Shown piece after piece: positions 25,076-48,335 of a stretch of 64,000 bases of DNA. The position numbers and the translations under genes are program-made. Under the pieces are notes generated by a model. It searched no databases and was not told the origin of the DNA. It saw only the letters and a list, made by a program, of their open reading frames with translations. The DNA is from Colwellia sp. (GTDB lineage: Bacteria; Pseudomonadota; Gammaproteobacteria; Enterobacterales; Alteromonadaceae): assembly GCF_013214175.1 (NCBI RefSeq), contig NZ_JABSPA010000002.1, positions 496,001 to 560,000 on the forward strand, given 5' to 3'. The first letter of the stretch is position 1; each line of letters begins with the position of its first letter.

Positions 25076-25322
25076 TTTAACTAACGGGGCTTAATTTTAT
25101 GATGTGCATAGTTATTTACTCGATATTTTTAATCTATGGATTTGCATATAGCGAACAGTGTGGAAGAGTGCTTTTCATTTTGCAAAATGCGAGTTAGATT
25201 GCTCGTTATTAGCAGTACTGAGAGCTGGAGTATGAACAATTGAGTTAAATTAACAGTAGCTAAAAGTAGTACGTTTTTTGACTGGATGGATTACTGAGGA
25301 TTTTTCAAGGAGTATAAAAAAA

Positions 25323-25378
25323 GGTTGGCTGGCTAAAGGAAGTTGAATCTATGGAAATGAATTATGGAATCACTGGGG
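25323..25378 (-). repeat. Degenerate tRNA-His-like fragment, copy A
   Basis: The + strand read GGCTGGCTAAAGGAAGTTGA...ATGGAATCACT aligns with the complement of the tRNA-His 3' half. The CTAAAGG core is at 25333, 94 bp before the core of copy B. The 5' half of a tRNA is not recognisable. The remainder of 25076-25322 holds no gene I can support. Confidence 0.6.
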
Positions 25379-25417
25379 GTTCTTTCTAGTTCTAAATTTT
25401 TACGAGACTAATAAAAA

Positions 25418-25470
25418 ATGGGCTGTCTAAAGGAGCTTCAATCCACGGTAAAGCGAAAATGGAATCACCC
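25418..25470 (-). repeat. Degenerate tRNA-His-like fragment, copy B
   Basis: The + strand read ATGGGCTGTCTAAAGGAGCT...ATGGAATCACC aligns with the tRNA-His 3' end, including the ATGGG that encodes the CCA end. The CTAAAGG core is at 25427, 93 bp before the one in the intact gene (25520). The spacing equals one tRNA plus a 17-bp spacer, as expected for a decayed tandem tRNA array. Confidence 0.65.
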
Positions 25471-25511
25471 GTGATTGTTTGGGGTATAAGTTTTAAAAAG
25501 GAAGAAAAAAA

Positions 25512-25588
25512 TGGGGTGGCTAAAGGGACTTGAACCCTCGACAACCGGAATCACAATCCGGGGCTCTACCAACTGAGCTATAGCCACC
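25512..25588 (-). tRNA. tRNA-His (anticodon GTG)
   Basis: The minus strand gives a full cloverleaf of 77 nt. It starts GGTGGCTATAGCTCAGTTGG, has the anticodon loop TTGTGAT closed by a CCGGA/TCCGG stem, T-loop GGTTCAAGTCC, and ends TAGCCACC with an encoded CCA. The extra 5' G (G-1) pairing with C73 is the identity element of tRNA-His. It is very close to the E. coli gene. It stands alone, with decayed copies of its 3' half downstream. Confidence 0.98.
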
Positions 25589-36244: not shown

Positions 36245-36364
36245 CTAGCCTTTCGAACCACAAACGCTACAGTTTTCTTGCTTTTTCATGTTAAATTGCT
36301 GCCATTGATTAGCTAGGCCATCGAGTAAGTTAAGTTGGTTAAGCTGCACTTTCTTAGCTGGCAT
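36245..36364 (-). pseudogene. Diverged second copy of the moeB 3' end (39-codon coupled frame)
   Basis: Just after the moeB stop, the last 33 or so codons of moeB occur again. The copy keeps KVQLNQLNLLDGLANQWQQF exactly and then ends ENCSVCGSKG, against KSCVVCGTSDKTING in moeB. Most differences are synonymous or conservative, and the C-x-x-C zinc pair is kept. The copy begins with an ATG overlapping the moeB stop (TAATG), giving an open 39-residue frame. It looks like the tail of a displaced homologous allele; a real coupled small protein is not excluded. Confidence 0.85.
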
Positions 36365-37131
36365 TAGCCGTTAATAGTTTTATCGCTTGTACCACATACC
36401 ACGCAACTTTTTTGTTTTTTCATGTTAAATTGCTGCCATTGATTGGCTAAACCATCGAGTAAGTTTAGTTGGTTAAGCTGCACTTTATTTCCCGTTAATA
36501 GTTTAATTGCCTGTAAGCTTTGCATGCCAGCAATCATGGCCAATACTGGGCCAATAATGCCTATGGTTTGGCAATTATTGGCTGGCGCTTTTTCACTGGC
36601 AGGAAACAGGCAATGGTAACAAGCACTGCTGTCATCACGAGGGTCTATGGTGAGTTGTTGACCATCAAAGCCCGTAGCTGCACCTACTATCAGTGGCACT
36701 TTATGTTGCACACAGGCTTGGTTTATCAAGTAACGCGTTTGAATATTGTCAGAGCAATCGAGCACTAAATCGACTTGTGGCAGATAATATTCACATAACT
36801 CTGCATCGATCATTTCATCAATAGCTTCAATAGTTACATCAGGGAATTGTTGCTGTAGTTTCTCTGCGGCGACGTCAGCTTTATTTTCATTAATATTACT
36901 TTCACTAAAGAGAATCTGTCTGGGTAAGTTACTCAGCTCGATGCAATCGCCATCGGCAAGATAAAGTGTGCCAACACCGGCGGCAGCTAAATATAAACTG
37001 GCTGGATTACCCAAGCCACCAACGCCTAAAATAAGCACCTTAGCGTTACGCAGTGCTAATTGTCCTTGCTCGCCAATTTTATCCAACATTATTTGGCGGG
37101 AGTATTTAACTTGCTCTTGATTACTTAACAC
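36364..37131 (-). CDS. moeB: Molybdopterin-synthase adenylyltransferase
   Basis: The 255-residue protein is an E1-like MoeB/ThiF enzyme. The nucleotide loop is GVGGLGNPASLYLAAAGVG, there is an Arg finger in NLPRQ, DCSDN supplies the catalytic Asp, and two C-x-x-C pairs bind zinc (CYHC and CVVC). It adenylates the MoaD C-terminal glycine. I prefer the GTG at 37131 (AGGA 6 nt upstream), which aligns with E. coli MoeB; an ATG at 37179 would overlap modC. It is last in the modABC-moeB run. A tail duplicate follows the stop. Confidence 0.92.
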   Translation of the reverse strand: MLSNQEQVKYSRQIMLDKIGEQGQLALRNAKVLILGVGGLGNPASLYLAAAGVGTLYLADGDCIELSNLPRQILFSESNINENKADVAAEKLQQQFPDVTIEAIDEMIDAELCEYYLPQVDLVLDCSDNIQTRYLINQACVQHKVPLIVGAATGFDGQQLTIDPRDDSSACYHCLFPASEKAPANNCQTIGIIGPVLAMIAGMQSLQAIKLLTGNKVQLNQLNLLDGLANQWQQFNMKKQKSCVVCGTSDKTING

Positions 37132-37153
37132 GTGTGTTCCTAGTTTATTGGCT

Positions 37154-38353
37154 TTAATGGATAAAAGTACGCACAGCACTTGCTTTGAACTGCAAATATA
37201 CCTGTTGTCTGATGGTTAGTGATAATTTTTGTTGAGAAAAAGCACTGATAGTGACGAAAAAGTCTTGTGAGCCACAATGAACCGTCAACAAGACATTATT
37301 CTGCTGATGGTTTATTTGTTTTATCGTGCCAAAGAGGTGATTAACGATAGAGCTATTAGTTGGCTCCGTTAGGATAATACTAATGTCACTGGCCAAAATA
37401 AAGCAACGTAATTGAGTTTGCTGCGCAAATGTCTGATCGCAGACCATAAAAATGTCTTCGTGGGCATTTAACGCTAAAGCCGTTAAGCCATGACCATTAT
37501 TAAAGGTTTTAATGGGCAGTGATAAACTGGTTTGTTGATGAATAATATCACTATTAGTGTCATTGTTGAGCTGATGAATTACTTGGTGGATATTACCGAA
37601 GTTGACCACCTTACCTTCAGCTAGCACTAATAAGTTGTCACAAACTTGCTGTAATTCATCTAAAGAATGGCTGACGTATAACATAGGTAAACTCAGCTGT
37701 TTTTGAATGTTAAGCATCATCTTTAACAATTGGGTTTTACTGTGTCGATCAAGGGCGCTTAATGGCTCATCGAGTAGTAATAATTTCGGCTCGGCTAGTA
37801 TTGCTCTGGCTAAGGCGACTCTTTGCTGTTGACCACCCGAGAGTTGATTGACTCGATGATCAAGCAAGGCGCCTAACTCGGTGAGTTTGATTACTTCATC
37901 TAATGACAGGCGGTTGTTTTTACAACGTTTGACCGCATATTCTAAGTTACCGAGCACAGTTAAATGTGCAAACAAACGACTGTTTTGAAAGACTAAGCCT
38001 ACTTGGCGCTGCTCAGGTTTGAGGTACAAACCTTGTTCACTGTTGACTAAAGTTCTACTGACTAACGTTTTACTGGGCAAGCTTGTATCGGTTAAGGTTA
38101 TCTCACCACGCAATGATGTTTCTAAACCAGCAATGGCTCGCAATAAAGTTGATTTACCTGATGCAGAATGGCCAAAAATTCCAGTGATGCCTATTAAGGG
38201 GATTGCTAGCTCAATGGCTAAATCAAATTGCTGATAATTAACACGAATATTAAGGTCTAGTTGCGGCGCTTTATTGTTAGGCCGACTATTCAAAGCTGCA
38301 TTATTTACAGGAGAATGACTTATAGGAGGATTATTTATAGGAAAATTAGTCAT
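37154..38353 (-). CDS. modC: Molybdate ABC transporter ATP-binding protein
   Basis: This 399-residue protein has Walker A GHSASGKST, signature LSGGQQQR and Walker B LLLLDEPLSALD. A C-terminal TOBE/Mop-type domain (about 325-395) is the molybdate-binding regulatory part of ModC. An unusual N-terminal leader of about 30 residues (Asn-, Pro- and Ser-rich) precedes the ATPase. It looks like repeated DNA and makes the protein longer than E. coli ModC (352). It lies 33 bp after modB. Confidence 0.92.
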   Translation of the reverse strand: MTNFPINNPPISHSPVNNAALNSRPNNKAPQLDLNIRVNYQQFDLAIELAIPLIGITGIFGHSASGKSTLLRAIAGLETSLRGEITLTDTSLPSKTLVSRTLVNSEQGLYLKPEQRQVGLVFQNSRLFAHLTVLGNLEYAVKRCKNNRLSLDEVIKLTELGALLDHRVNQLSGGQQQRVALARAILAEPKLLLLDEPLSALDRHSKTQLLKMMLNIQKQLSLPMLYVSHSLDELQQVCDNLLVLAEGKVVNFGNIHQVIHQLNNDTNSDIIHQQTSLSLPIKTFNNGHGLTALALNAHEDIFMVCDQTFAQQTQLRCFILASDISIILTEPTNSSIVNHLFGTIKQINHQQNNVLLTVHCGSQDFFVTISAFSQQKLSLTIRQQVYLQFKASAVRTFIH

Positions 38354-38386
38354 GGGAACTTCTCTCTTCTCGCACAGTGTTAACCA

Positions 38387-39067
38387 TTAAATTCTTACTG
38401 CTGTTTTTTTCGGTAAATTTAACCAATAGATAGCGGCTAATAGCACCATAGAAGTTATTAATAAACTGATGGAAAGCAGATGTGCTCTGGCATAATCAAA
38501 AGCCTCAACATGGTCAAATAGCGCAATGGAAAGTACCCGTGTTTCACCGGGTATATTGCCACCAATCATTAAGATGACTCCAAATTCGCCGACCGTATGA
38601 GCAAAACCTAAACTGGCGGCGGTAATAAAGCTGGCTTTTGTTAATGGCAGCACAATAGAAAAAAATCTATCGATTGGCCCCGCACCAAGTAAAGCGCCCG
38701 CTTCTAATAAGGAGTCACCTAATTGTTCAAAGGCTTTTTGCAGTGGCTGAACGACAAAAGGCAGTGAATATAAAACTGAGCCAATAACGATGGCGGAAAA
38801 ACTAAAGGCCAGCTGTTGACCCGTTGCTTGCTGCCAAAGTTGTCCGGGTAAGTATTCAGGGGAAAAAGCTATTAGTAAATAAAAGCCTAATACCGTTGGT
38901 GGTAACACTAGCGGTAAAGCGACCACAGCTTCTATGATAACTTTAAAACGACTGGTCATTTTGGCAAGGTACCAAGCCAGCGGAGTACCAATAATCAGTA
39001 AAATTATCGTGGTTAATGCCGCCATTTCTAAGGTGGTGATCAGTGCTTGTAAGTCTGAATTCATCAT
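38387..39067 (-). CDS. modB: Molybdate ABC transporter permease
   Basis: The 226-residue permease has five to six helices and the EAA-type loop in GALLGAGPIDRFFSIVLPL. The motif LPLVLPPTVLGFYLL is the ModB/CysTW signature. It overlaps the modA stop by 4 bp (translational coupling) and precedes modC. Confidence 0.93.
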   Translation of the reverse strand: MMNSDLQALITTLEMAALTTIILLIIGTPLAWYLAKMTSRFKVIIEAVVALPLVLPPTVLGFYLLIAFSPEYLPGQLWQQATGQQLAFSFSAIVIGSVLYSLPFVVQPLQKAFEQLGDSLLEAGALLGAGPIDRFFSIVLPLTKASFITAASLGFAHTVGEFGVILMIGGNIPGETRVLSIALFDHVEAFDYARAHLLSISLLITSMVLLAAIYWLNLPKKTAVRI

Positions 39068-39903
39068 CTAGTCATTAGCTCGCTGTTATTCGTTAGAGTC
39101 ATTTCGGCGTAGCCATAACTAACGATCGTCGCTTGGCTCTTGGCTGAGAGTAAATAGTCACTTAACTTTTTCGCGGCTACTTGCTGCTTACTGGCGCGAA
39201 TAATAATTAACTGTTGCTCAATCGCTTGATGATAACTTGTTGGGATAAGAACCCCAGATAAATTATTTAGCACTAATTGGCTATTGGCAACTATACCACC
39301 GCTAACCGCTTTACTACGTACCTGGGCAAAGGTTTGCCCGATATTAATGCCTTTTATTAACCTATGTTGATAAGCCTGCCACAAACCCATATGGTTTAGC
39401 GCTTCTTTGGCTGCTTTACCATAAGGAGCAATGTCGGGATTAGCAATGGCCAAGCGTACCGGCGGACTTTTTAACAGGTTAATAGATAATTGTTCAAGAG
39501 ATAATGGTTCAAGTGAATTTTTAGTGGCGGAATATAAGGCGAGCTGACCAATGGCATAGGTTTTTCGACTATTTTGCAGCGCAAAACCGGCTTGCTCAAG
39601 TTGCTTTGGACGGCGGCTGTCGGCACTGAGGAAAATGTCATAAGGCGCGCCATGTTTAATTTGCAAAAACATCGCGCCACTAGCACCACTAATTATCTGG
39701 GTTTTTATACTTGTTTGCTTGTGGAAGTCTTCGAGTAATACTTTTAATACTGGGGTGAAGTTAGCGGCAACGGCAATGCGTAACAGTGTGCTGGAACCTT
39801 GTTTTCCTTTATCCATGCTTTGTTGTGCATTGCTGTTAACACTGGTGAGTAAGCTGATGACAAAACAGCAAGGTAACAAGGTGTATAAAAGAAAACGTAG
39901 CAC
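39064..39903 (-). CDS. modA: Molybdate-binding periplasmic protein
   Basis: About 279 residues: a signal peptide cut near NSNAQQ, then a ModA domain with AVAANFTPVLKVLLEDF, ISGASGAMFLQIKHGAPYDIFLSAD and IANPDIAPYGKAAKEAL. These hold the oxyanion ligands (Ser, Ala, Tyr). The GTG at 39903 has GGAG 6 nt upstream and keeps the signal peptide; an upstream GTG at 39936 lacks a ribosome-binding site and would overlap moaE. It is the first of the modABC genes. Confidence 0.9.
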   Translation of the reverse strand: MLRFLLYTLLPCCFVISLLTSVNSNAQQSMDKGKQGSSTLLRIAVAANFTPVLKVLLEDFHKQTSIKTQIISGASGAMFLQIKHGAPYDIFLSADSRRPKQLEQAGFALQNSRKTYAIGQLALYSATKNSLEPLSLEQLSINLLKSPPVRLAIANPDIAPYGKAAKEALNHMGLWQAYQHRLIKGINIGQTFAQVRSKAVSGGIVANSQLVLNNLSGVLIPTSYHQAIEQQLIIIRASKQQVAAKKLSDYLLSAKSQATIVSYGYAEMTLTNNSELMTR

Positions 39904-39904
39904 G

Positions 39905-40387
39905 CTAGCTCCACAGCTCTGCTTTGTCAGTATCACCGGTTTTAGCGTCCAACCAGTTTTCTGAAGTTTTCCCTGCCTCGGTAATTTGCTCTTTCTTCCA
40001 AAAAGGCGCTTTAACTTTCAAATAATCCATGATGAATTCATTGGCAGCAAAAGCATCTTGTCTATGTTTGCTGGTGACACCAACAAAAACAATTTGCTCA
40101 CCTATATGCAGTTCGCCAATGCGATGAATTACTTTAACTCGACCTATCTGCCATTGCTCTTTAGCTTGGTTGATAATTTTAGCTAAGGATTTTTCAGTCA
40201 TACCTGGGTAATGCTCTAGCGTTAAGCTAGTTACGCTATTACCATTATTGTTATTTCTAACTCTGCCTGTGAAGGTCACCACAGCACCATCGGTTAAGTT
40301 GTCTTTTTCGAGTAAGGCAACTTCATCGGCTAAACTAAAATCCTCAGCTTGGATGGATATTTCTGCAAAAAGGTCTTGGCTTGTCAT
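39905..40387 (-). CDS. moaE: Molybdopterin synthase catalytic subunit
   Basis: The 160-residue protein matches MoaE, including VVTFTGRVRNNNNGNSVTSL, RVKVIHRIGELHIGEQIVFVGV, and the active-site lysines in LKVKAPFWKKE. With MoaD it inserts the dithiolene sulfurs into cPMP. It is 3 bp after moaD. Confidence 0.94.
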   Translation of the reverse strand: MTSQDLFAEISIQAEDFSLADEVALLEKDNLTDGAVVTFTGRVRNNNNGNSVTSLTLEHYPGMTEKSLAKIINQAKEQWQIGRVKVIHRIGELHIGEQIVFVGVTSKHRQDAFAANEFIMDYLKVKAPFWKKEQITEAGKTSENWLDAKTGDTDKAELWS

Positions 40388-40390
40388 CAG

Positions 40391-40639
40391 TTATCCACCA
40401 GTTACAGGAGGGAAAAAGGCAACTTCATCACCTGATTTCACTAAATGATCACCAGCAACCATGTCATGGTTTACTGCCGATAACAGTGAGGCATTGCTAA
40501 ATGTTTGTCGCCACTGGGAATTTCTATCACTTAAGCGCTGTTTTACCTCATTGACTGTTTTAACATCATCAGCGCTTAAAGACAGTTCAGCACAATCTAG
40601 CTGCTCTCTTAAGGCGGCAAAAAAAACAATTTTAATCAT
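40391..40639 (-). CDS. moaD: Molybdopterin synthase sulfur-carrier subunit
   Basis: This 82-residue ubiquitin-like protein ends in the required double glycine (FFPPVTGG), the site adenylated by MoeB and thiocarboxylated. It lies between moaC (28 bp) and moaE (3 bp). Confidence 0.94.
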   Translation of the reverse strand: MIKIVFFAALREQLDCAELSLSADDVKTVNEVKQRLSDRNSQWRQTFSNASLLSAVNHDMVAGDHLVKSGDEVAFFPPVTGG

Positions 40640-40667
40640 ACTAATTCTCTATTTGTTCTCTAATTAA

Positions 40668-41192
40668 TTAAGCAGAAGGTTTTTGCCAATGACCCGACTT
40701 GCCACCTTCTTTTGTTAATACTTCAATGCCAGAAATCTTCATGGCAGGATCAGCCGCTTTACACATATCAAATAAGGTTAAACATGCAATAGCAACGGCA
40801 GTTAATGCTTCCATCTCTACGCCTGTTTGCCCCGTTAAGCGACATAGGCTATTAACTTGTACTTGGCTATTTTCACTATCAAGAGTGAAATCTACTTGTA
40901 CCTTAGTCAACATTAACGGGTGACATAAAGGAATCAAGTCGCTGCATTTTTTCGCGGCTTGAATGCCAGCAATACGAGCAACAGCAAACACATCTCCCTT
41001 TTTATGTTTACCTGTGGTAATTAATTCAAAAGTCGCACGGTTCATTTTAATAAAACCTTGCGCAGTTGCCGTACGTGATGTCATGGCTTTTTCCGTGACA
41101 TCGACCATATTCGCTTCACCTTGTTGGTTAAGGTGGCTTAGCTCAGGCGCTGACTCAGGTTTCTGTTCTTGCATATCAGTATTAGTTGTCAT
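40668..41192 (-). CDS. moaC: Cyclic pyranopterin monophosphate synthase
   Basis: The 174-residue protein matches Moa[41 protein letters not shown] and [24 protein letters not shown]. The latter two hold the active-site residues. It carries about 16 extra N-terminal residues relative to E. coli. Its ATG overlaps the moaB stop as TAATG, so translation is coupled. Confidence 0.94.
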
Positions 41193-41734
41193 TAGCCGCG
41201 AGTCTCACATGCTTCTACTGTGATATTTAAATGTGGGACAAAATTACAAGGACGGTGACTAGCATCTAACTGCTCTTTAATCACTTTATCCCAAGCCGTT
41301 TTACAAGCATTGGTTGAGCCTGGTACACACAAAACTACCGTTTTGTTGGCGATGCCACCAAAAGCACGAGATTGAATAGTTGAGGTACCTATTTCAATTA
41401 ATGACACATGACGAAAAACTTCGCCAAAACCTTCTACAGCCTTATCAAATAATGGCGTTAATGCTTCAGGAGTATTATCACGATCGGTAAAGCCAGTGCC
41501 ACCGGTAGAAATAATGGCATGAATAGTATCATCGGCAATCCACTTGGAAACTTGTGCACGCAATTGATAAACGTCATCAATAACAATGGCTTTATCAGCT
41601 AAGTTATGACCTGCTTGTGTTAAACGCTCAACTAGCGCTTGCCCCGAAGTATCGTTCGCTTCGGTGCGTGTATCGGATACCGTTAAAACGGCGATATTTA
41701 AGGGAACGAAAGTGTTGCCGCCATGTGCTGACAT
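41192..41734 (-). CDS. moaB: Molybdopterin adenylyltransferase-like protein
   Basis: This 180-residue MoaB/Mog-family protein has the [19 protein letters not shown] and [16 protein letters not shown] motifs of the MPT-binding domain. MoaB proteins are needed for Moco synthesis in many bacteria and may adenylate MPT. It is downstream of mobA, with the mobA 3'-tail copy in the gap. Confidence 0.9.
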
Positions 41735-41818
41735 AGGTTTTTCCTTGACTAAATATTTTAGATTAAATTAAATTTTCGCTACTAATATTGAAACGTATTG
41801 CTACTCAATATGTTTAGC

Positions 41819-41870
41819 CTAAAACTGTTGTTGTGCTTGCTGCCATTGATTCTCTTGACAGTGAGTGTAT
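41819..41870 (-). pseudogene. Diverged second copy of the mobA 3' end
   Basis: About 50 bp after the mobA stop resemble the last codons of mobA: the frame encodes QENQWQQAQQQF then stop, against TPEQWQQAKKQF in mobA. Bases between the copies also match in the AAT(A/G)CGTT stretch, making a direct repeat with period 72 bp. The match is shorter than for moeB and pyrB. Confidence 0.6.
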
Positions 41871-41890
41871 TGCTAACCAATACGTTCGCT

Positions 41891-42568
41891 CTAAAATTGT
41901 TTTTTTGCTTGTTGCCACTGCTCTGGCGTGTTGGTATTAAATAGCGCCTGATTGTTTGGACTAGTAATGGCTTGGTGAGGCATTTTCGCCAGCAAGGCTC
42001 TAACTGAAGGACCATTTTTATTATTTTTCTGGCCGCTTCTTTTACTCTTTTCATTGCCGAGGGCGAGCAAGCTTTCTCGCTGGAATGCTTGTGCTAAAAA
42101 CAGTTGCAAAAAAGCATTGTTGGGCAAGTATAACGGAATATGATGCGCTTGTTTTTGGCCATCACTGAAAAAAGTCGCTTTGTGACTCAGTTCACCTTTT
42201 AGACGCAGTTTAGCTAAATCTGCGGCTGTCATTAAGGGTAAATCAACGGGTAATATTAATAATGCTTTTGGTTGTAAGTGTTCAGGGTAATGAGCTAAAA
42301 CACTATAAATTCCACCAACAGGACCAGAGCATGGTACTAGGTCTGGAATTTGATAGTTATCACCACTAACAACGATATTTTTTATGCCTGCATCACTAAG
42401 CAGCTGCTTGGAAAAATCTAACATGCTACTTGTTGATTTAATAGCGGAATTATTTGTGGTAGTAGTTACATTTTTAAGACGTGTTAACTGTGCTTTATCT
42501 TGCCCCATACGAGAAGATAAACCGCCAGCAAGTACTACACCTAAGCAATCTATAGCTTGATAATTCAT
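41891..42568 (-). CDS. mobA: Molybdenum cofactor guanylyltransferase
   Basis: The 225-residue protein matches MobA: GVVLAGGLSSRMGQDKAQL (Gly-rich GTP-binding loop), VVSGDNYQIPDLVPCSGPVGGIYSVL and LPVDLPLMTAADLAKL. It links GMP to molybdopterin to form MGD for DMSO-reductase family enzymes. It starts 2 bp after moaA. The C-terminal third is Asn/Gln-rich, and the 3' end occurs a second time downstream. Confidence 0.9.
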   Translation of the reverse strand: MNYQAIDCLGVVLAGGLSSRMGQDKAQLTRLKNVTTTTNNSAIKSTSSMLDFSKQLLSDAGIKNIVVSGDNYQIPDLVPCSGPVGGIYSVLAHYPEHLQPKALLILPVDLPLMTAADLAKLRLKGELSHKATFFSDGQKQAHHIPLYLPNNAFLQLFLAQAFQRESLLALGNEKSKRSGQKNNKNGPSVRALLAKMPHQAITSPNNQALFNTNTPEQWQQAKKQF

Positions 42569-42570
42569 AA

Positions 42571-43542
42571 CTAACCCCCAAGCATAGCGAGGTGTTTAGT
42601 AGCGCCTGTTAGCTTTTCATGTAAAAAATGGGTGGCTTTTTTGTCACCGAGTAATGATACGATCTGCTTTTGTAATGGTGCGATATCATCACTTTGCAAT
42701 TGTTCACGTAGTGACAAACCTTCGTCACCAAATAGACATAAATGCAATTTACCGCTTGAACTAATTCTTAAACGATTACAGCTATTACAGAAATCTTTGG
42801 AGTAGGGCATGATCAAACCGATTTTACCTTGATAATCTGGGTGATAAAATTCTTGTGCGGGACCGGCAGATTTACTTTGGATAACAGGTAACCAACCATC
42901 AAGTATCAAGTTTTGTTTAATACGTGAACCTTGTACATGTTGCGCATCAAAAAATTCTTTATTATCGCCAGTTTGCATTAACTCAATAAAACGTAAAGTT
43001 ATAGGGGTATCTTTTATCCAGTCAAGGTAGCTCTGAATATCTTTGCCGCTGTACTCACGCATTAATACCGTATTAACCTTAATTGATGCTCTGCCATCGG
43101 CTAAGCCCATATCAATACCCTTGAGAATGGTCTTGAGTTTATCGTGGCCTGTTATCGCGTGAAATTGGCGTGGATCTAAACTATCGATACTGATATTAAT
43201 GGCATCAATGCCGGCATCCAACCATTGAGGTAAGTGCTCGGGCAATTTAAAACCATTACTGGTTATGGCAACTTTCTTGATACCTGGTGTTTCTTTACAA
43301 ATTTGAATGATTTCAGGTAAGTCTTTACGCAAGGCAGGTTCACCACCAGTAATGCGGATCTTCTCTGTGCCTAGCTCGGCGAAAGCTTTGGTTAAACGTT
43401 TGATTTCACATAGTGATAAGAAATCACGTGGCTGATCGCACTGATAACCGTCAGGTAAGCAGTAAGTGCAGCTAAAATTGCACACGTCAGTAATCGATAA
43501 GCGCAGGTAAGAGAACCTACGACCATAGTTGTCTGTTAACAT
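42571..43542 (-). CDS. moaA: GTP 3',8-cyclase (radical SAM)
   Basis: This 323-residue radical-SAM enzyme has the 4Fe-4S ligands in CNFSCTYC (Cys21, 25, 28) and the C-terminal cluster CNSCNRLRISSSGKLHLC. The C-terminal GG tail is required for MoaC transfer. It catalyses the first step of Moco synthesis. AAAGGTGAC precedes the ATG. A structured leader and an FNR-type box lie upstream. The gene is first in the minus-strand operon. Confidence 0.95.
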   Translation of the reverse strand: MLTDNYGRRFSYLRLSITDVCNFSCTYCLPDGYQCDQPRDFLSLCEIKRLTKAFAELGTEKIRITGGEPALRKDLPEIIQICKETPGIKKVAITSNGFKLPEHLPQWLDAGIDAINISIDSLDPRQFHAITGHDKLKTILKGIDMGLADGRASIKVNTVLMREYSGKDIQSYLDWIKDTPITLRFIELMQTGDNKEFFDAQHVQGSRIKQNLILDGWLPVIQSKSAGPAQEFYHPDYQGKIGLIMPYSKDFCNSCNRLRISSSGKLHLCLFGDEGLSLREQLQSDDIAPLQKQIVSLLGDKKATHFLHEKLTGATKHLAMLGG

Positions 43543-43560
43543 GTCACCTTTCCAAATGTA

Positions 43561-43628
43561 GGGAGGCTAACGCGTTTCCTTGTTAACCCTGGTAACTAAA
43601 AAACCAATAATTACATGGCCTTAGTTAC
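43561..43628 (-). ncRNA. Structured moaA leader, candidate Moco riboswitch
   Basis: The minus-strand leader has a perfect 8-bp inverted repeat (GTAACTAA with TTAGTTAC, 43592-43628), then GTTACCAGGGTTAAC and GCCTCCC shortly before the ribosome-binding site. Moco riboswitches commonly precede moaA in gammaproteobacteria. I cannot confirm the full consensus by eye. Confidence 0.4.
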
Positions 43629-43740
43629 GGCTTGTCACAACATGATGGTTTATAATAAGTAGGCTTTATAGTGCCTAAAAAGAAAGTCATGGTAGCTATG
43701 ACAGCTCGGTGTTATAAATAAAATTCTGTTCAATATTTAG

Positions 43741-43790
43741 TATATACCCGGCCTACTTGAAGATGCAAGTTCAGAGCAATGGGCATATAT
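43741..43790. repeat. 50-bp imperfect palindrome (MITE/REP-like)
   Basis: TATATACCC at the left and GGGCATATAT at the right enclose a central ACTTGAAGATGCAAGT hairpin. Such short palindromic elements with nested arms are typical of dispersed non-coding repeats. It lies in the 453-bp gap between moaA and moeA, which has no gene. Confidence 0.5.
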
Positions 43791-43833
43791 TATTTTGATG
43801 GCGTGATAATAATTTTTTTAGCCGCCCTTAATA

Positions 43834-43847
43834 TTGATCAAAATCAA
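43834..43847. promoter_or_regulatory. FNR/EtrA-type binding site
   Basis: TTGATCAAAATCAA matches the FNR consensus TTGAT-N4-ATCAA perfectly. It lies 149 bp before the moeA ATG and 292 bp before the moaA ATG, so it can control either arm. Oxygen-limited activation fits a cofactor used mainly by anaerobic reductases. Confidence 0.75.
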
Positions 43848-43995
43848 TAAAGATGTGGTTATAGCACTATTATTTTTGTGGGTACTTAAGCGATACTAGC
43901 TATAACGGATTTAACCAATATTTTTCTAATTAGGCTGGTAAATTTACCTAGTTTAGAGTGATATTCATGTATTAACGTATTTAAGTGAGTTTTTT

Positions 43996-45228
43996 ATGTC
44001 TGATTGTTGCTCAGCTCCAGGGCTTTTACCTTTTGAAAATGCCTTAGCTAACATGCTAGCGCAAGTTTCACCTGTCACCGAAACATTAACCTTAGCCATT
44101 GACCAAACCTTGCACTATGTTTTAGCGCAAGATATTGCTAGCCCATTAAATGTACCACCTCATGATAACTCTGCAATGGATGGTTATGCTTTTGCTCTTG
44201 AGAGTTTTACGGCTAATAAAATCCTTACCCTTGTTGGTCGATCTATGGCTGGGGCGCCTTTTCAAGGTGTATGTCAGGTTGGAGAATGCATTCGTATTAT
44301 GACCGGTGCTAAAATGCCTGACTGTTGTGATTCAGTAGAGATGCAAGAAAATGTTAGCGCGGATGGCGAACAAATTACTTTTTTACAAGAGAAACGCTTT
44401 GGCTGCCATGTCCGTAATGCCGGGGAAGATATTCAACTCGGTCAACAAGTTCTGCAGTCTGGTCATAAGCTAACGGCGGTTGATATTGGTGTGCTTGCTT
44501 CATTGGGTGTGGCTGAAGTTAAAGTCTATCGTAAATTAAAGGTCGCTTTGATTGCTACCGGTGATGAATTAAAATTACCGGGACAAACATTACAAGTTGG
44601 CGATATTTATGAGTCTAACAGTTTTGTTTTAGCTGCCATGTTACAAAAGCTACATGTTGATGTTATTGATTTTGGTATTATTGAAGATGATTTTTCAGCA
44701 ATAAAAGCAGCCTTTATTAGTGCCGATGAGCAGGCCGATGCAGTGATTTCTTCTGGCGGTGTTTCGGTAGGTGATGCTGATTACACTAAAACTGTGCTAG
44801 ATGAATTGGGTGAAATAGCTTTTTGGAAAATAGCAATGAAACCAGGTAAGCCCTTTGCTTTTGGTAAGCTAGCCAACAGCCTATTTTTTGGTTTACCGGG
44901 TAACCCAGTTTCAGCCTTGGTGACTTTTCATCAATTAGCTTTGGTTGCCTTAACTAAAATGCAAAATGCTCAACCTTTAAAGCGCACACATTTAACAGTG
45001 AAATGCAGTACTGACTTGCGTAAATCTCCAGGACGTATGGATTTTCAACGAGGTATTTTAGCGATTAACTCACAAGGTGAAAATATCGTTAGTTCAACGG
45101 GTGCGCAAGGCTCAGGTATCTTATCTAGCTTAGCTAAGGCTAACTGCTATATTATTCTGCCAAGTGAGCAGGGTAAGGTCGCGGCAGGAGAAATGGTTAA
45201 TGTGCAATTATTCGATGAATTCTTATAA
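43996..45228 (+). CDS. moeA: Molybdopterin molybdotransferase
   Basis: The 410-residue protein matches MoeA: VPPHDNSAMDGYAF, RIMTGAKMPDCCDSVEMQE, VALIATGDELKLPGQ, SSGGVSVGDADYTK and FGLPGNPVSALVTF. It inserts molybdate into adenylated MPT. It is divergent from the moaA operon and apparently monocistronic. Confidence 0.95.
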   Translation: MSDCCSAPGLLPFENALANMLAQVSPVTETLTLAIDQTLHYVLAQDIASPLNVPPHDNSAMDGYAFALESFTANKILTLVGRSMAGAPFQGVCQVGECIRIMTGAKMPDCCDSVEMQENVSADGEQITFLQEKRFGCHVRNAGEDIQLGQQVLQSGHKLTAVDIGVLASLGVAEVKVYRKLKVALIATGDELKLPGQTLQVGDIYESNSFVLAAMLQKLHVDVIDFGIIEDDFSAIKAAFISADEQADAVISSGGVSVGDADYTKTVLDELGEIAFWKIAMKPGKPFAFGKLANSLFFGLPGNPVSALVTFHQLALVALTKMQNAQPLKRTHLTVKCSTDLRKSPGRMDFQRGILAINSQGENIVSSTGAQGSGILSSLAKANCYIILPSEQGKVAAGEMVNVQLFDEFL

Positions 45229-45331
45229 ATTACATTTAATGGCAAGTCGTTCTGTATATTGTCTATCATTTGTCTTGGGTTAAGGTTTATTGTATAGTAC
45301 AAAAAATAAACAGTAGTAGGTGGGTGTAACC

Positions 45332-45724
45332 ATGAAACATCAATTAAGCTTTGCAACAGTTAATGTATTAAGTGATTGTATTGTTGAAATAATTATAGCT
45401 GATGGCATTGAAGTATCAATGGAGATGCTTGATGAATTCGATGATTTTATTAGCCTGCAGCTGAGTGATAACTTTGTTTTGCTGATCAATAAAGTAAATA
45501 GCTATAGCTATACTTTTGAGGCAAAGATGACCATGGCCTCAAATGAAAAGTTAGTCGCTATTGCTGTGATTGTTTATAAAGATGAAGACCAGAAAATAAT
45601 AGACGATGTCATGTCGCTACGAGCCATCGATGATTGGAATTTAAAAGTATTTCCAGCATTAGATCTTGGTTGGCAGCAGGGTTATGATTGGCTACAAGCT
45701 GAGCTTGATTTATTGGTTACTTGA
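45332..45724 (+). CDS. STAS-like small protein of unknown function
   Basis: The 130-residue cytosolic protein resembles the SpoIIAA/STAS-like family found in many marine bacteria: a mixed alpha-beta pattern with FVLLINKVNSYSYTFEAKMTMAS followed by IAVIVYKDEDQK. The start at 45332 is preceded by AGGTGGG; an in-frame GTG at 45320 is less likely. No partner kinase or phosphatase is nearby. The match is by style only. Confidence 0.65.
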   Translation: MKHQLSFATVNVLSDCIVEIIIADGIEVSMEMLDEFDDFISLQLSDNFVLLINKVNSYSYTFEAKMTMASNEKLVAIAVIVYKDEDQKIIDDVMSLRAIDDWNLKVFPALDLGWQQGYDWLQAELDLLVT

Positions 45725-45789
45725 AGGTAACGCTGTCAGGAACCGAACTGAAAAGAGAGGGCTTGATAGATAAAAGCGATTTATTAAAG

Positions 45790-45824
45790 AAAAAGCGACT
45801 TAAATGAATTTAAGTCGCTTTTTT
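45790..45824. terminator. Bidirectional terminator between the STAS-like gene and hemL
   Basis: A 16-bp stem (AAAAAGCGACTTAAAT with ATTTAAGTCGCTTTTT) with a 2-nt loop and flanking A/T runs lies between convergent genes. It is strong on both strands. Confidence 0.92.
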
Positions 45825-45875
45825 ATATCAAAAATTATAGTTTACTAATAACACACTACAAAAATATTTTGGTAG

Positions 45876-47159
45876 TTATAGCTGAGCGAAACACTTATCA
45901 ACAGCAACTAATGTTTTTTCTATAATATCATCACTATGTGCAGTTGATAAAAATCCAGTTTCATAAGCCGATGGCGCTAAGTAAACCCCTTCAGCTAACA
46001 TCAAGTGAAAGAAACGTTTGAACTTCTCGGCATCACATTGAGTTGCTTGCTCGTAGCTAGTGATAGGGTTTTTGTCGTCGGTAAAGAAGAAGCCAAACAT
46101 GGCGCCAACATAATTTACACTTAAGCTAACACCATTACGTTCAGCTGCGGCTTTAAAGCCCATAGCTAGTTTTTCAGTAGCAGCACTTAATTGTTGATGT
46201 TTATCACCTTTAGCTAACTCAGTTAATGACGCTAAACCTGCCGCCATAGCAATTGGGTTACCTGATAAAGTACCCGCTTGATAAACTGGGCCAATTGGGG
46301 CGATATAATCCATAATCTCTTGTTTGCCACCAAAAGCGCCAACAGGCATGCCGCCGCCAATAACTTTACCTAAAGTGGTAAGGTCCGGTTTAATGTTATA
46401 AAGAGCTTGTGCACCACCTAGTGCGACACGAAAGCCAGTCATCACTTCATCAAAGATTAATACGCTACTGTACTGATCACATACCGCACGTAAACCTTCA
46501 AGAAAACCAGCAACAGGAGGAATACAGTTCATGTTACCGGCAACAGGTTCAACAATTATACAAGCTATCTCATCGGCGTATTTAGCAAAAATCTCTTTTA
46601 CTTCTTCGATGTTGTTATAGCTAACTGTCAGGGTATGTTTAGCAAAATCGGCAGGAATACCCGGTGAATTAGGTATACCCATAGTCAAAGCACCAGAGCC
46701 CGCTTTTACTAACAATGAGTCAGCATGACCATGGTAACAACCTTCAAATTTTAATATTTTATCGCGGCCAGTATAACCACGCGCTAAACGGATAGCGCTC
46801 ATGGTAGCTTCAGTACCAGAGCTAACCATACGTAAACATTCCATTGATGGCACTAACTCACGAACCTTTTCAGCCATGGTAATTTCAAGCTCTGTTGGTG
46901 CGCCAAAACTCAAGCCATTTTTTGCCGTAGTAATAACGGCATCAAGAATGGCTGGGTGGTTATGACCTAAAATCATTGGTCCCCAAGAGCCAACATAGTC
47001 AATGTAAGCTTTATCATCTGCATCATAAATATAAGCACCTTGGGCACGTTTTATAAAGCAAGGTGTACCGCCAACGCCATTGAAAGCACGCACTGGCGAG
47101 TTAACACCACCGGGAATTATTTTTTGCGCTTGTTCAAATAACTGTTCTGATTTATTCAT
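45876..47159 (-). CDS. hemL: Glutamate-1-semialdehyde 2,1-aminomutase
   Basis: This 427-residue PLP enzyme has the catalytic Lys265 in [13 protein letters not shown], plus [14 protein letters not shown] and [13 protein letters not shown]. It makes 5-aminolevulinate in the C5 haem pathway. It matches E. coli HemL in length (426). It lies downstream of pyrB, with the pyrB tail copy in the 162-bp gap; hemJ is 4 kb away. Confidence 0.95.
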
Positions 47160-47203
47160 AATATATTTCTTCTAAAAGTCGTTACTTATAGGGAGTATTG
47201 CCG

Positions 47204-47321
47204 CTAAGCATTTTTATTTGTCAACCAGTTTACTGGCTTTTCATAATTGCTGATTTGATCTTCAACACCTAACGTTAATACCAGGAAATAGCCTATGCGC
47301 AGGCTAGCTCCATAATGGCAA
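47204..47321 (-). pseudogene. Diverged second copy of the pyrB 3' end
   Basis: The last 25 or so codons of pyrB recur directly after its stop, encoding TLGVEDQISNYEKPVNWLTN and KNA against TLGVEDQITNYEKPVNWFTN and KNT. The DNA matches for about 75 bp with roughly seven differences. Upstream, LRIGYFLV still resembles VRMALFA, so homology reaches back to the intact gene's stop. No start codon is in frame, so it is not expressed alone. It looks like an orphan allele tail. Confidence 0.88.
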
Positions 47322-48335
47322 TTAAGTATTTTTATTTGTGAACCAGTTTACCGGCTTTTCGTAATTTGTGATTTGATCTTCAACACCTAACGTTAAGGCA
47401 AATAAGGCCATACGCACTAAAACACCATTTTGTGCTTGCCTAAAAATAGCTAGGTTATCTAAGTCATTTAGATCTGTATCTAATTCATTGGCTTCAGGGC
47501 GAGAGTCGCGCGGCAATGGATGCATGATAACGGTATTTTCTTGACAATATTTTTGGTAAACACTCTTATTCAAACTGAAATGTCCGCGATATAATTCTGC
47601 TTCATCTTTGCTGGCAAAGCGCTCTTGCTGAATTCTGGTTTGATAGATAACATCAGCAGATAAATTTCCCGCCATAGTTTCTGTCAAAGTAACTTCATGA
47701 CCGGCATCAGTTAATGTTGAAATAACACTGTCAGGCATTTGTAAGGCCTTGGGTGCCACCATAGTCACTTTAACATTGTCATAAAGACTGAGTAATTTGG
47801 ATAATGAATGTACGGTACGACCATGTTTTAAGTCACCCATCAAAACAATATTTAAATCATCTAAGCCTTTATTAAAGTGCATCATTTCAGACTGAATAGT
47901 AAATAAATCTAGTAAAGCCTGAGTAGGGTGTTCATTGGCACCATCACCACCATTGATAACTGGCACTGTACTGCCTAGAGCAAACTGATCTACCGAGTGC
48001 ATTTGTGGGTGACGCATGGCAATGACATCGGAATAGCCGCTGATCACTTGCGCGGTATCAAATAAAGATTCACCTTTACTTAGCGATGAGTTTTCTTGAC
48101 CAACGGTTTCACGGACAGAACCGCCGAGTAAGTTAAAGGCGGTACCAAAACTAACACGAGTACGTGTGCTTGGTTCAAAAAATAAGTTACTTAATATTGC
48201 ACCTTCGAGCACATGACAACGTTTTTGTCGTGACGCATAAGGTGCCATTTGTGCGGAAATTTGTAAAATCTTTACGATAGCCTCTCGGTCAAATTGTGAT
48301 ACCGATAGAATATGGTTACCTTGAAATTTCATCAT
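47322..48335 (-). CDS. pyrB: Aspartate carbamoyltransferase (single-chain type)
   Basis: The 337-residue protein has the carbamoyl-phosphate motif FFEPSTRTRVSFG (52-64), GDGANEHPTQALLDL and HPLPRDSRPEANELDTD. No pyrI follows, and the length is above E. coli PyrB (311), as in the Vibrio/Colwellia-type stand-alone enzyme. It catalyses the first committed step of pyrimidine synthesis. No ribosome-binding site of note precedes the ATG-ATG start. The 3' end is duplicated downstream. Confidence 0.93.
   Translation of the reverse strand: MMKFQGNHILSVSQFDREAIVKILQISAQMAPYASRQKRCHVLEGAILSNLFFEPSTRTRVSFGTAFNLLGGSVRETVGQENSSLSKGESLFDTAQVISGYSDVIAMRHPQMHSVDQFALGSTVPVINGGDGANEHPTQALLDLFTIQSEMMHFNKGLDDLNIVLMGDLKHGRTVHSLSKLLSLYDNVKVTMVAPKALQMPDSVISTLTDAGHEVTLTETMAGNLSADVIYQTRIQQERFASKDEAELYRGHFSLNKSVYQKYCQENTVIMHPLPRDSRPEANELDTDLNDLDNLAIFRQAQNGVLVRMALFALTLGVEDQITNYEKPVNWFTNKNT

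Follow-up and report, generated by a model that had tools for sequence, protein, structure and literature searches.

Copies of gene ends in the window

The window analysed here is a 64,000-nucleotide stretch of a Colwellia sp. genome (contig NZ_JABSPA010000002.1, positions 496,001 to 560,000 of the forward strand). Directly behind each of the minus-strand genes moeB, mobA and pyrB in it lies a diverged copy of that gene's 3′ end, which we call a tail. An earlier note on this DNA had described these copies, and its stop-to-stop offsets of 119 bp for moeB, 72 bp for mobA and 118 bp for pyrB held up. Comparison of the window with itself yielded four short-range tandem duplications, which lie behind these three genes and behind a tRNA-His gene. 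Open reading frames (ORFs) are mechanical calls rather than annotated genes.

The aspartate carbamoyltransferase gene pyrB (47322–48335, minus strand) passes its NCBIfam cut-off. Its 118-bp tail occupies 47204–47321 on the same strand, and the repeated segments (47205–47278 and 47323–47396) are 92% identical. The gene ends in NKNT and the tail in NKNA, the native-type end (terminal residues are written here up to the stop codon). The left 43 bp of the tail (47279–47321) hold a conserved hairpin, TAGCCT/AGGCTA. The claim that such copies preserve amino acids better than bases applies to this gene and its last tail, where codon positions 1, 2 and 3 differ at 1, 1 and 5 sites, but not to pyrB of Colwellia sp. 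TT2012, where the corresponding counts are 4, 3 and 2.

The moeB gene (36364–37179, minus strand) matches NCBIfam MoeB models below their curated cut-off. Its tail (36245–36391, minus strand) repeats the gene's 3′ end, beginning at roughly QAIKLL and reaching the old stop at 36245, and carries a 10-bp insertion; the repeated segments, 36274–36391 and 36408–36515, are 82% identical. Past CVVCG, the codons of the gene read out of frame into its own tail and stop inside it, so that the gene now ends in CVVCGTSDKTING, the out-of-frame codons of the tail start. The same tail is present in genomes G001 and G035, and the C. piezophila array is longer.

Matches of mobA (41891–42568, minus strand) to MobA models are weak and below the curated cut-off. 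Its first tail (41819–41890, minus strand) is 72 bp long and contains an inverted repeat, GTATTG/CAATAC; the repeated segments (41795–41848 and 41867–41920) are 78% identical. A decayed second tail probably lies at 41782–41818 on the same strand, as judged by eye by way of the six-tail array of TT2012. The fourth duplication, absent from the earlier note, is an array at 25300–25540 (68% repeat, offset 96, bit score 44.6). It consists of two diverged copies of the 3′ part of tRNA-His(GTG) (25515–25587, minus strand) at 25300–25514 on the same strand, with a spacing of about 96 bp; the second copy was identified by eye.

Gene-end tails in the genome and its relatives

The census covered 860 kb of the window genome (about 17% of it), 400 kb each of TT2012, Colwellia sp. 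75C3 and G033, all of the same genus, and 400 kb of G044, from another family. We counted each mechanically called ORF of at least 100 amino acids whose tested side had 60 bp or more of intergenic DNA. Its last (or first) 200 bp were compared by alignment with the intergenic DNA behind (or ahead of) it, a score of at least 100 was taken as a match, and permuted intergenic sequences of similar length served as the null. A looser alignment scoring did not separate tails from background and was replaced by this stricter one.

At 3′ ends, matches were found for 8/418 ORFs in the window genome, 5/187 in TT2012, 3/168 in 75C3, 1/177 in G033 and 0/157 in G044. The permutation expectation was at most 0.1 for every genome and end, and 0.0 for 3′ ends of the window genome. 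The tails are far beyond chance alignment, and the recurrence at unrelated genes and the excess over random expectation that the earlier note had proposed to look for were both present in the 860 kb examined. The eight carriers in the window genome are moeB, pyrB, tesB, pdhR, a Bcr/CflA transporter gene, proA, nosZ and mshN; mobA of the window itself is outside this set. The minus-strand location reported for the three window genes is correct for them but does not extend further, since pdhR, mshN and the transporter gene lie on the plus strand.

At 5′ ends, the counts in the same order were 2/454, 2/195, 0/204, 0/190 and 0/212. By eye, three of the four matches are the far side of duplications that span the junction between the end of one gene and the start of the next, and the fourth, which is rich in A, looks like a chance match. 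We also examined 34 of 36 named loci, leaving out the distant L237 and L238. In 26 of them (513 kb), from species without a clear pyrB tail, 2/244 3′ ends and 1/240 5′ ends scored; the former are moaC of GAB14E and a decayed pyrB tail in the metagenome-assembled genome SRR3933266, and the latter is L222, which was not inspected. The eight pyrB-centred loci (tail carriers plus the close relative L203) gave 13/92 and 0/74. Escherichia coli K-12 (200 kb) gave 0/57 and 0/67, and C. piezophila (80 kb) gave 1/43, at tsaD, and 0/50.

Pooled over the window genome, TT2012 and 75C3, 3′ ends matched more often than 5′ ends (16/773 versus 4/853, p = 0.005), a comparison that includes the genes of the region that drew attention. 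Those three carrier genomes also exceeded the pooled controls at 3′ ends (16/773 versus 3/635, p = 0.010) and exceeded G033 and G044 alone (16/773 versus 1/334, p = 0.031; p = 0.30 with the pyrB–moeB cluster removed). Counted as distinct loci, with the ascertained genes included, 11 were 3′-only (pyrB, mobA, moaC, moeB, tsaD, proA, tesB, pdhR, nosZ, mshN and an NtrC-type gene) and one, L222, was 5′-only (p = 0.006). A 3′ preference and an excess in this clade are likely. The tails are no artefact of one assembly, because isolate and metagenome assemblies agree.

Array anatomy, native ends and turnover

The arrays are built of head-to-tail units of 61–184 bp, and when they are laid out at unit length the units are in register with the stop codon. 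TT2012 has six 71-bp units behind mobA, two 96-bp tails behind moaC and two 118-bp tails behind pyrB. Behind moaC there are three tails in MTCD1 and one in C. piezophila. 75C3 has two 64-bp tails behind an NtrC-type regulator gene; this gene hits many sigma-54 families, and all of the 25 shown stay below their cut-offs. The nosZ units of G033 are about 150 bp long and include the terminator. Tails of tsaD were found by protein search in 8/39 genomes of the genus, with further copies in MTCD1 seen by eye, and GAB14E and ND2E have at least three each. Among the carriers, pyrB, moaC, tesB, pdhR and the Bcr/CflA transporter gene pass NCBIfam cut-offs; proA, nosZ, mshN and tsaD are presumed names, based on their sequences. 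In C. piezophila, gene-end arrays lie at L239:14731–15100 (presumably tsaD) and at L070:13582–13775 (moeB).

In six of the nine genomes with a pyrB tail (the window genome, DT17, L204, 12G3, C. piezophila and the decayed SRR3933266), the last copy ends N-A and the gene ends otherwise. In 12G3, for example, the gene and the inner tail end in NKNI and the last tail in NKNA. The gene and the last copy of 75C3 both end in NKNA, and the last copies of TT2012 and MTCD1 end in NKNL. NKNA is also the gene end in seven close tail-free genomes (GAB14E, G033, 38_32, ND2E, ERR599125, SRR3933168 and C. demingiae). In several arrays the last tail runs into the sequence found directly behind pyrB of a tail-free relative, most clearly in L204 compared with C. 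demingiae. A similar pattern is seen at moaC, where the TT2012 gene ends in GHWQTPK, its last tail in GHWQSPSA and the tail-free moaC of the window in GHWQKPSA. The last tsaD copy of C. piezophila breaks the rule and extends to an end that is longer and apparently decayed. In most of the pyrB arrays and in TT2012 moaC, the gene itself is altered in a few C-terminal residues and has its stop codon at the junction. A native-type last copy is consistent with a tandem duplication that was out of frame and ended, on the right, a few bases before the native stop.

On a tree of the region built from nine proteins, pyrB tails occur in two separated groups, plus the decayed one in SRR3933266. The left segment, common to the tails, speaks for one origin followed by about four losses. 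A footprint of such a loss is visible in G035: it has no tail, and its TAG stop with the bases behind it agrees with the tail end of its sister. Of the tsaD tail, only the hairpin part is left in the window genome and DT17, as judged by eye. The proA, tesB and pdhR tails of the window genome are absent from their TT2012 orthologues (90–94% identity), which makes them either younger or lost in TT2012. Both the window genome and TT2012 carry the mshN and Bcr/CflA arrays, and both the window genome and G033 carry nosZ tails.

Within a species, the gene and its first pyrB tail differ at 1–16 of 74–75 bases. Species-typical residues appear in genes and tails alike: LTHYEK in 12G3 (gene and both tails), LTQYEK in 75C3 and WYTNKN in TT2012 and MTCD1. 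This sharing of residues probably reflects homogenisation by recombination.

Origin of the tails and related systems

We consider it probable that the tails are short tandem duplications at gene ends that were tolerated and then homogenised, expanded or deleted by recombination. A tandem duplication of about 60–180 bp, arising through illegitimate recombination or replication slippage, would cover the 3′ end of a gene. The start of the following copy would supply the new stop in its first bases, and the native end would be displaced downstream. Duplications may survive at 3′ ends because an out-of-frame event there would cost few C-terminal residues, and none if the break falls after the stop. 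Recombination between the repeats could then homogenise their common core, shift the copy number and remove arrays. Most tails are probably near-neutral, and those of pyrB and tsaD may have retained a hairpin for a role in the 3′ untranslated region (3′-UTR). Of the sources that the earlier note had suggested, duplication or recombination acting at 3′ ends gives the best account of the tails.

Several points weigh against this explanation. Without the seven matches of the pyrB–moeB cluster, the difference between 3′ and 5′ ends falls to 9/766 versus 4/853 (p = 0.16) and that between carriers and pooled controls to 9/766 versus 3/635 (p = 0.24), neither being significant. The last residue is not uniform in tail-free species: C. 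ponticola ends in NKNT and G035 in NKNV. By eye, several right-hand breakpoints (pyrB, moaC, pdhR, proA and tesB) lie nearer to the stop codon than blind duplication needs; nosZ of G033 (about +80) and the Bcr/CflA junction are counter-examples. Microhomology at the junctions was assessed by eye only, with hints of short shared words at moaC and proA and none at pdhR. Finally, the left 43 bp of first pyrB tails diverge by 0.12–0.30 without gaps between distinct lineages, compared with 0.43–0.57 at 4-fold sites, and neutral DNA should decay faster.

That slow divergence bears on a second explanation, in which the tails are functional 3′-UTR modules whose hairpins guard the transcript or modulate the gene that follows, and whose spread and conservation are due to selection. 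Between sister pairs, the same 43 bp diverge by 0.02–0.21 and 4-fold sites by 0.05–0.28; the second pyrB tail of 75C3 has one inserted base in this segment. For the same species pairs as in the first comparison, nearby intergenic DNA diverges by 0.18–0.27 between moaA and moeA, where a riboswitch is present, and by 0.23–0.49 between hemL and moeA, where there is a small ORF. The riboswitch is of the molybdenum/tungsten cofactor type (Rfam RF01055, 64.5 bits; window 43529–43723, minus strand, upstream of moaA). The pyrB hairpin is intact in 93.5% of pair cells over 12 sequences, and the tsaD hairpin in 87.5% of cells. Of the 17 tsaD tail copies recovered, 12 entered this count; left out were two identical copies from GAB14E, one from ND2E and two from C. 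piezophila. The tsaD hairpin also outlasts the rest of its tail in the window genome and DT17. In Mycobacterium tuberculosis, a correlation between intergenic repeat length and fpg1 expression is reported (PMC2734929).

Against the 3′-UTR explanation, neither hairpin covaries beyond shuffles; two tsaD pairs change on both sides, as happened in 252/500 shuffles. Folding z-scores of tails and gene ends at 12 loci did not differ (Wilcoxon p = 0.68), and the summed longest stems of the tails at 12 loci exceeded those of shuffles weakly (p = 0.038). We regard selection as the general source of the tails as rather unlikely, and a 3′-UTR role for some of the hairpins as possible. Two other ideas about these segments were dropped. 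One was a mobile hairpin with long target duplications: the 43-bp pyrB segment resembled an insert, but by eye it reads as a diverged gene copy (HYGVSLRMGYF versus QNGVLVRMALF), and its core has no second occurrence in the genome. The other was translation of the tails, since variable positions of the left pyrB segment showed, by eye, no third-position bias.

It is unlikely that a dedicated process, active in the Colwellia psychrerythraea–piezophila group, copies the last 60–180 bp of genes to about the stop codon, primed for example by the 3′ end of the message or by nearby hairpins. Such a process would have seeded dozens of genes, with arrays then kept by recombination and some co-opted as 3′-UTR hairpins. 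The earlier note had seen here a candidate for an undescribed process, which our analysis does not bear out, as an ordinary mechanism suffices. The gene-end arrays are unusual in number and likely ordinary in mechanism. A link to piezophily was also considered and dropped. The deep-sea isolates MTCD1, TT2012 and C. piezophila have tails at pyrB, mobA and moaC, but GAB14E, ND2E and G033 carry tsaD tails, and 75C3 and 12G3, whose lifestyle was not checked, carry pyrB tails. GAB14E and ND2E lack pyrB tails, and the weaker moaC match is in GAB14E only. A lower coding density in piezophiles is described by Peoples et al. (2020; PMC7542103).

Allele replacement from a related species, with the tail as what remains of the former gene end, was another source named in the earlier note. 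The last copy does often resemble the gene ends of tail-free species, but this is expected from duplication too. For the 12 pyrB tails, the clustering with alleles of other species that the note had anticipated was mixed: the own gene end is nearest or joint nearest for five, and a foreign end is nearer for seven, by 1–2 bases in six of them and by 5 in C. piezophila, whose tail is closer to GAB14E (12/75 bases) than to its own gene (17). The nearest foreign pyrB ends differ from the tails at 3–12 of 75 bases, and there is no close match to any single donor allele. Among mobA tails (10 rows, 27 bases) the own end is nearest or joint nearest for six; the window mobA tail matches G007 at 27/27 bases and its own gene at 23/27. 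For moaC tails, the own gene end ranks second, second, second and sixth. In these comparisons the rows for 12G3 mobA and C. piezophila moaC are out of register, and that for moeB of the window genome is uninformative, with its gene end out of frame. Read as sequence distances, these values give no pointer to a foreign donor. Arrays of near-identical copies, species-specific residues common to gene and tails, and a left segment that only tails have and whose divergence follows the species tree also speak against replacement, and we judge it improbable.

A lineage-wide rise in duplication rate through loss of a repair nuclease would accord with the denser tails of one Colwellia group, an excess over the pooled controls that is significant only with the ascertained genes included. 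Of the two genes searched, the ExoI C-terminal domain was found in 39/39 genomes of the genus and SbcD over its cut-off in 35/39. G001, an incomplete genome that carries tails, is one of the four without SbcD over the cut-off. We consider this explanation quite improbable. In several Colwellia, the window genome included, the SbcD model matches in two pieces within one open frame.

Remnants of elements that insert at the 3′ ends of genes and reconstitute those ends, also proposed in the earlier note, are very improbable: the 3′ location, a restored gene end, a tRNA among the carriers and a displaced native-type end (in 6/9 pyrB arrays and TT2012 moaC, as duplication likewise predicts) would suit them, but the head-to-tail repeats adjoin with no element or integrase between them (no search was made for intact larger elements at carrier genes), each unit derives from its own gene, and a genome-wide search for the 23-base pyrB hairpin core, allowing up to three mismatches, gave a single occurrence.

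Direct repeats arising by slippage or illegitimate recombination, with RecA-dependent changes in copy number, typically have small units, are lost to one copy and have homogenised copies. The Colwellia arrays share the direct repeats, small units, loss to one copy and homogenised copies, and gene and tail carry the species-specific changes in common. They differ in that the repeats lie mostly at gene ends, in this sample, and at many genes of one species group. The MIRU/VNTR repeats of M. tuberculosis (for example VNTR3239 between rnc and fpg1) are also short tandem units between genes, limited to a clade and variable in copy number (PMC2734929). The Colwellia arrays likewise are short intergenic tandem units whose copy number differs between relatives. 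MIRU units of 40–100 bp occur dispersed at 41 sites of a single chromosome (PMC2734929), whereas each Colwellia unit is the 3′ end of the adjacent gene. No dispersed unit family was found in Colwellia, in that the pyrB core is unique in the genome and no repeat of more than 60 bp is shared between places in the window; of all the units, the pyrB core was the one searched for across the genome.

In yeast, template switching is described as a route to quasi-palindrome correction (PMC8604942). Similarly, the 3′ arm of the tsaD tail is newly, as judged by eye, the reverse complement of the 5′ arm that derives from the gene; this concerns few loci only, and we do not infer a causal role in the duplications. 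Deletion-coupled insertions in Haloquadratum are likewise recurrent rearrangements without a known mechanism, but they bring unrelated DNA to one place (PMC3119063), whereas the Colwellia DNA is the gene's own end. We recognised no description of gene-specific 3′-end arrays in the open-access literature searched.

The gene-end arrays provide a natural record of short tandem duplications arising and vanishing in a bacterial lineage. They also trace how coding and non-coding copies become homogenised and how C-termini are altered through duplication instead of point mutation. If the 3′ preference proves true in a whole-genome census, selection versus mechanism becomes directly testable. Arrays can also disturb assembly, as with moeB of C. 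piezophila, whose array falls at contig ends (C4 and C20).

Three other repeats were noted in passing. In the window genome, a tandem duplication of about 180 bp (G000:C12:761658–762012) lies behind a gene that we take to be rpsI, with a terminator-like hairpin in each copy. At G000:C12:885411–885670, an 80-bp unit is present about three times directly after a terminator-like hairpin. At L099:8198–9003, related small ORFs stand in tandem with a common leader-like start and cysteine-rich ends, and by eye they resemble double-glycine leader peptides.

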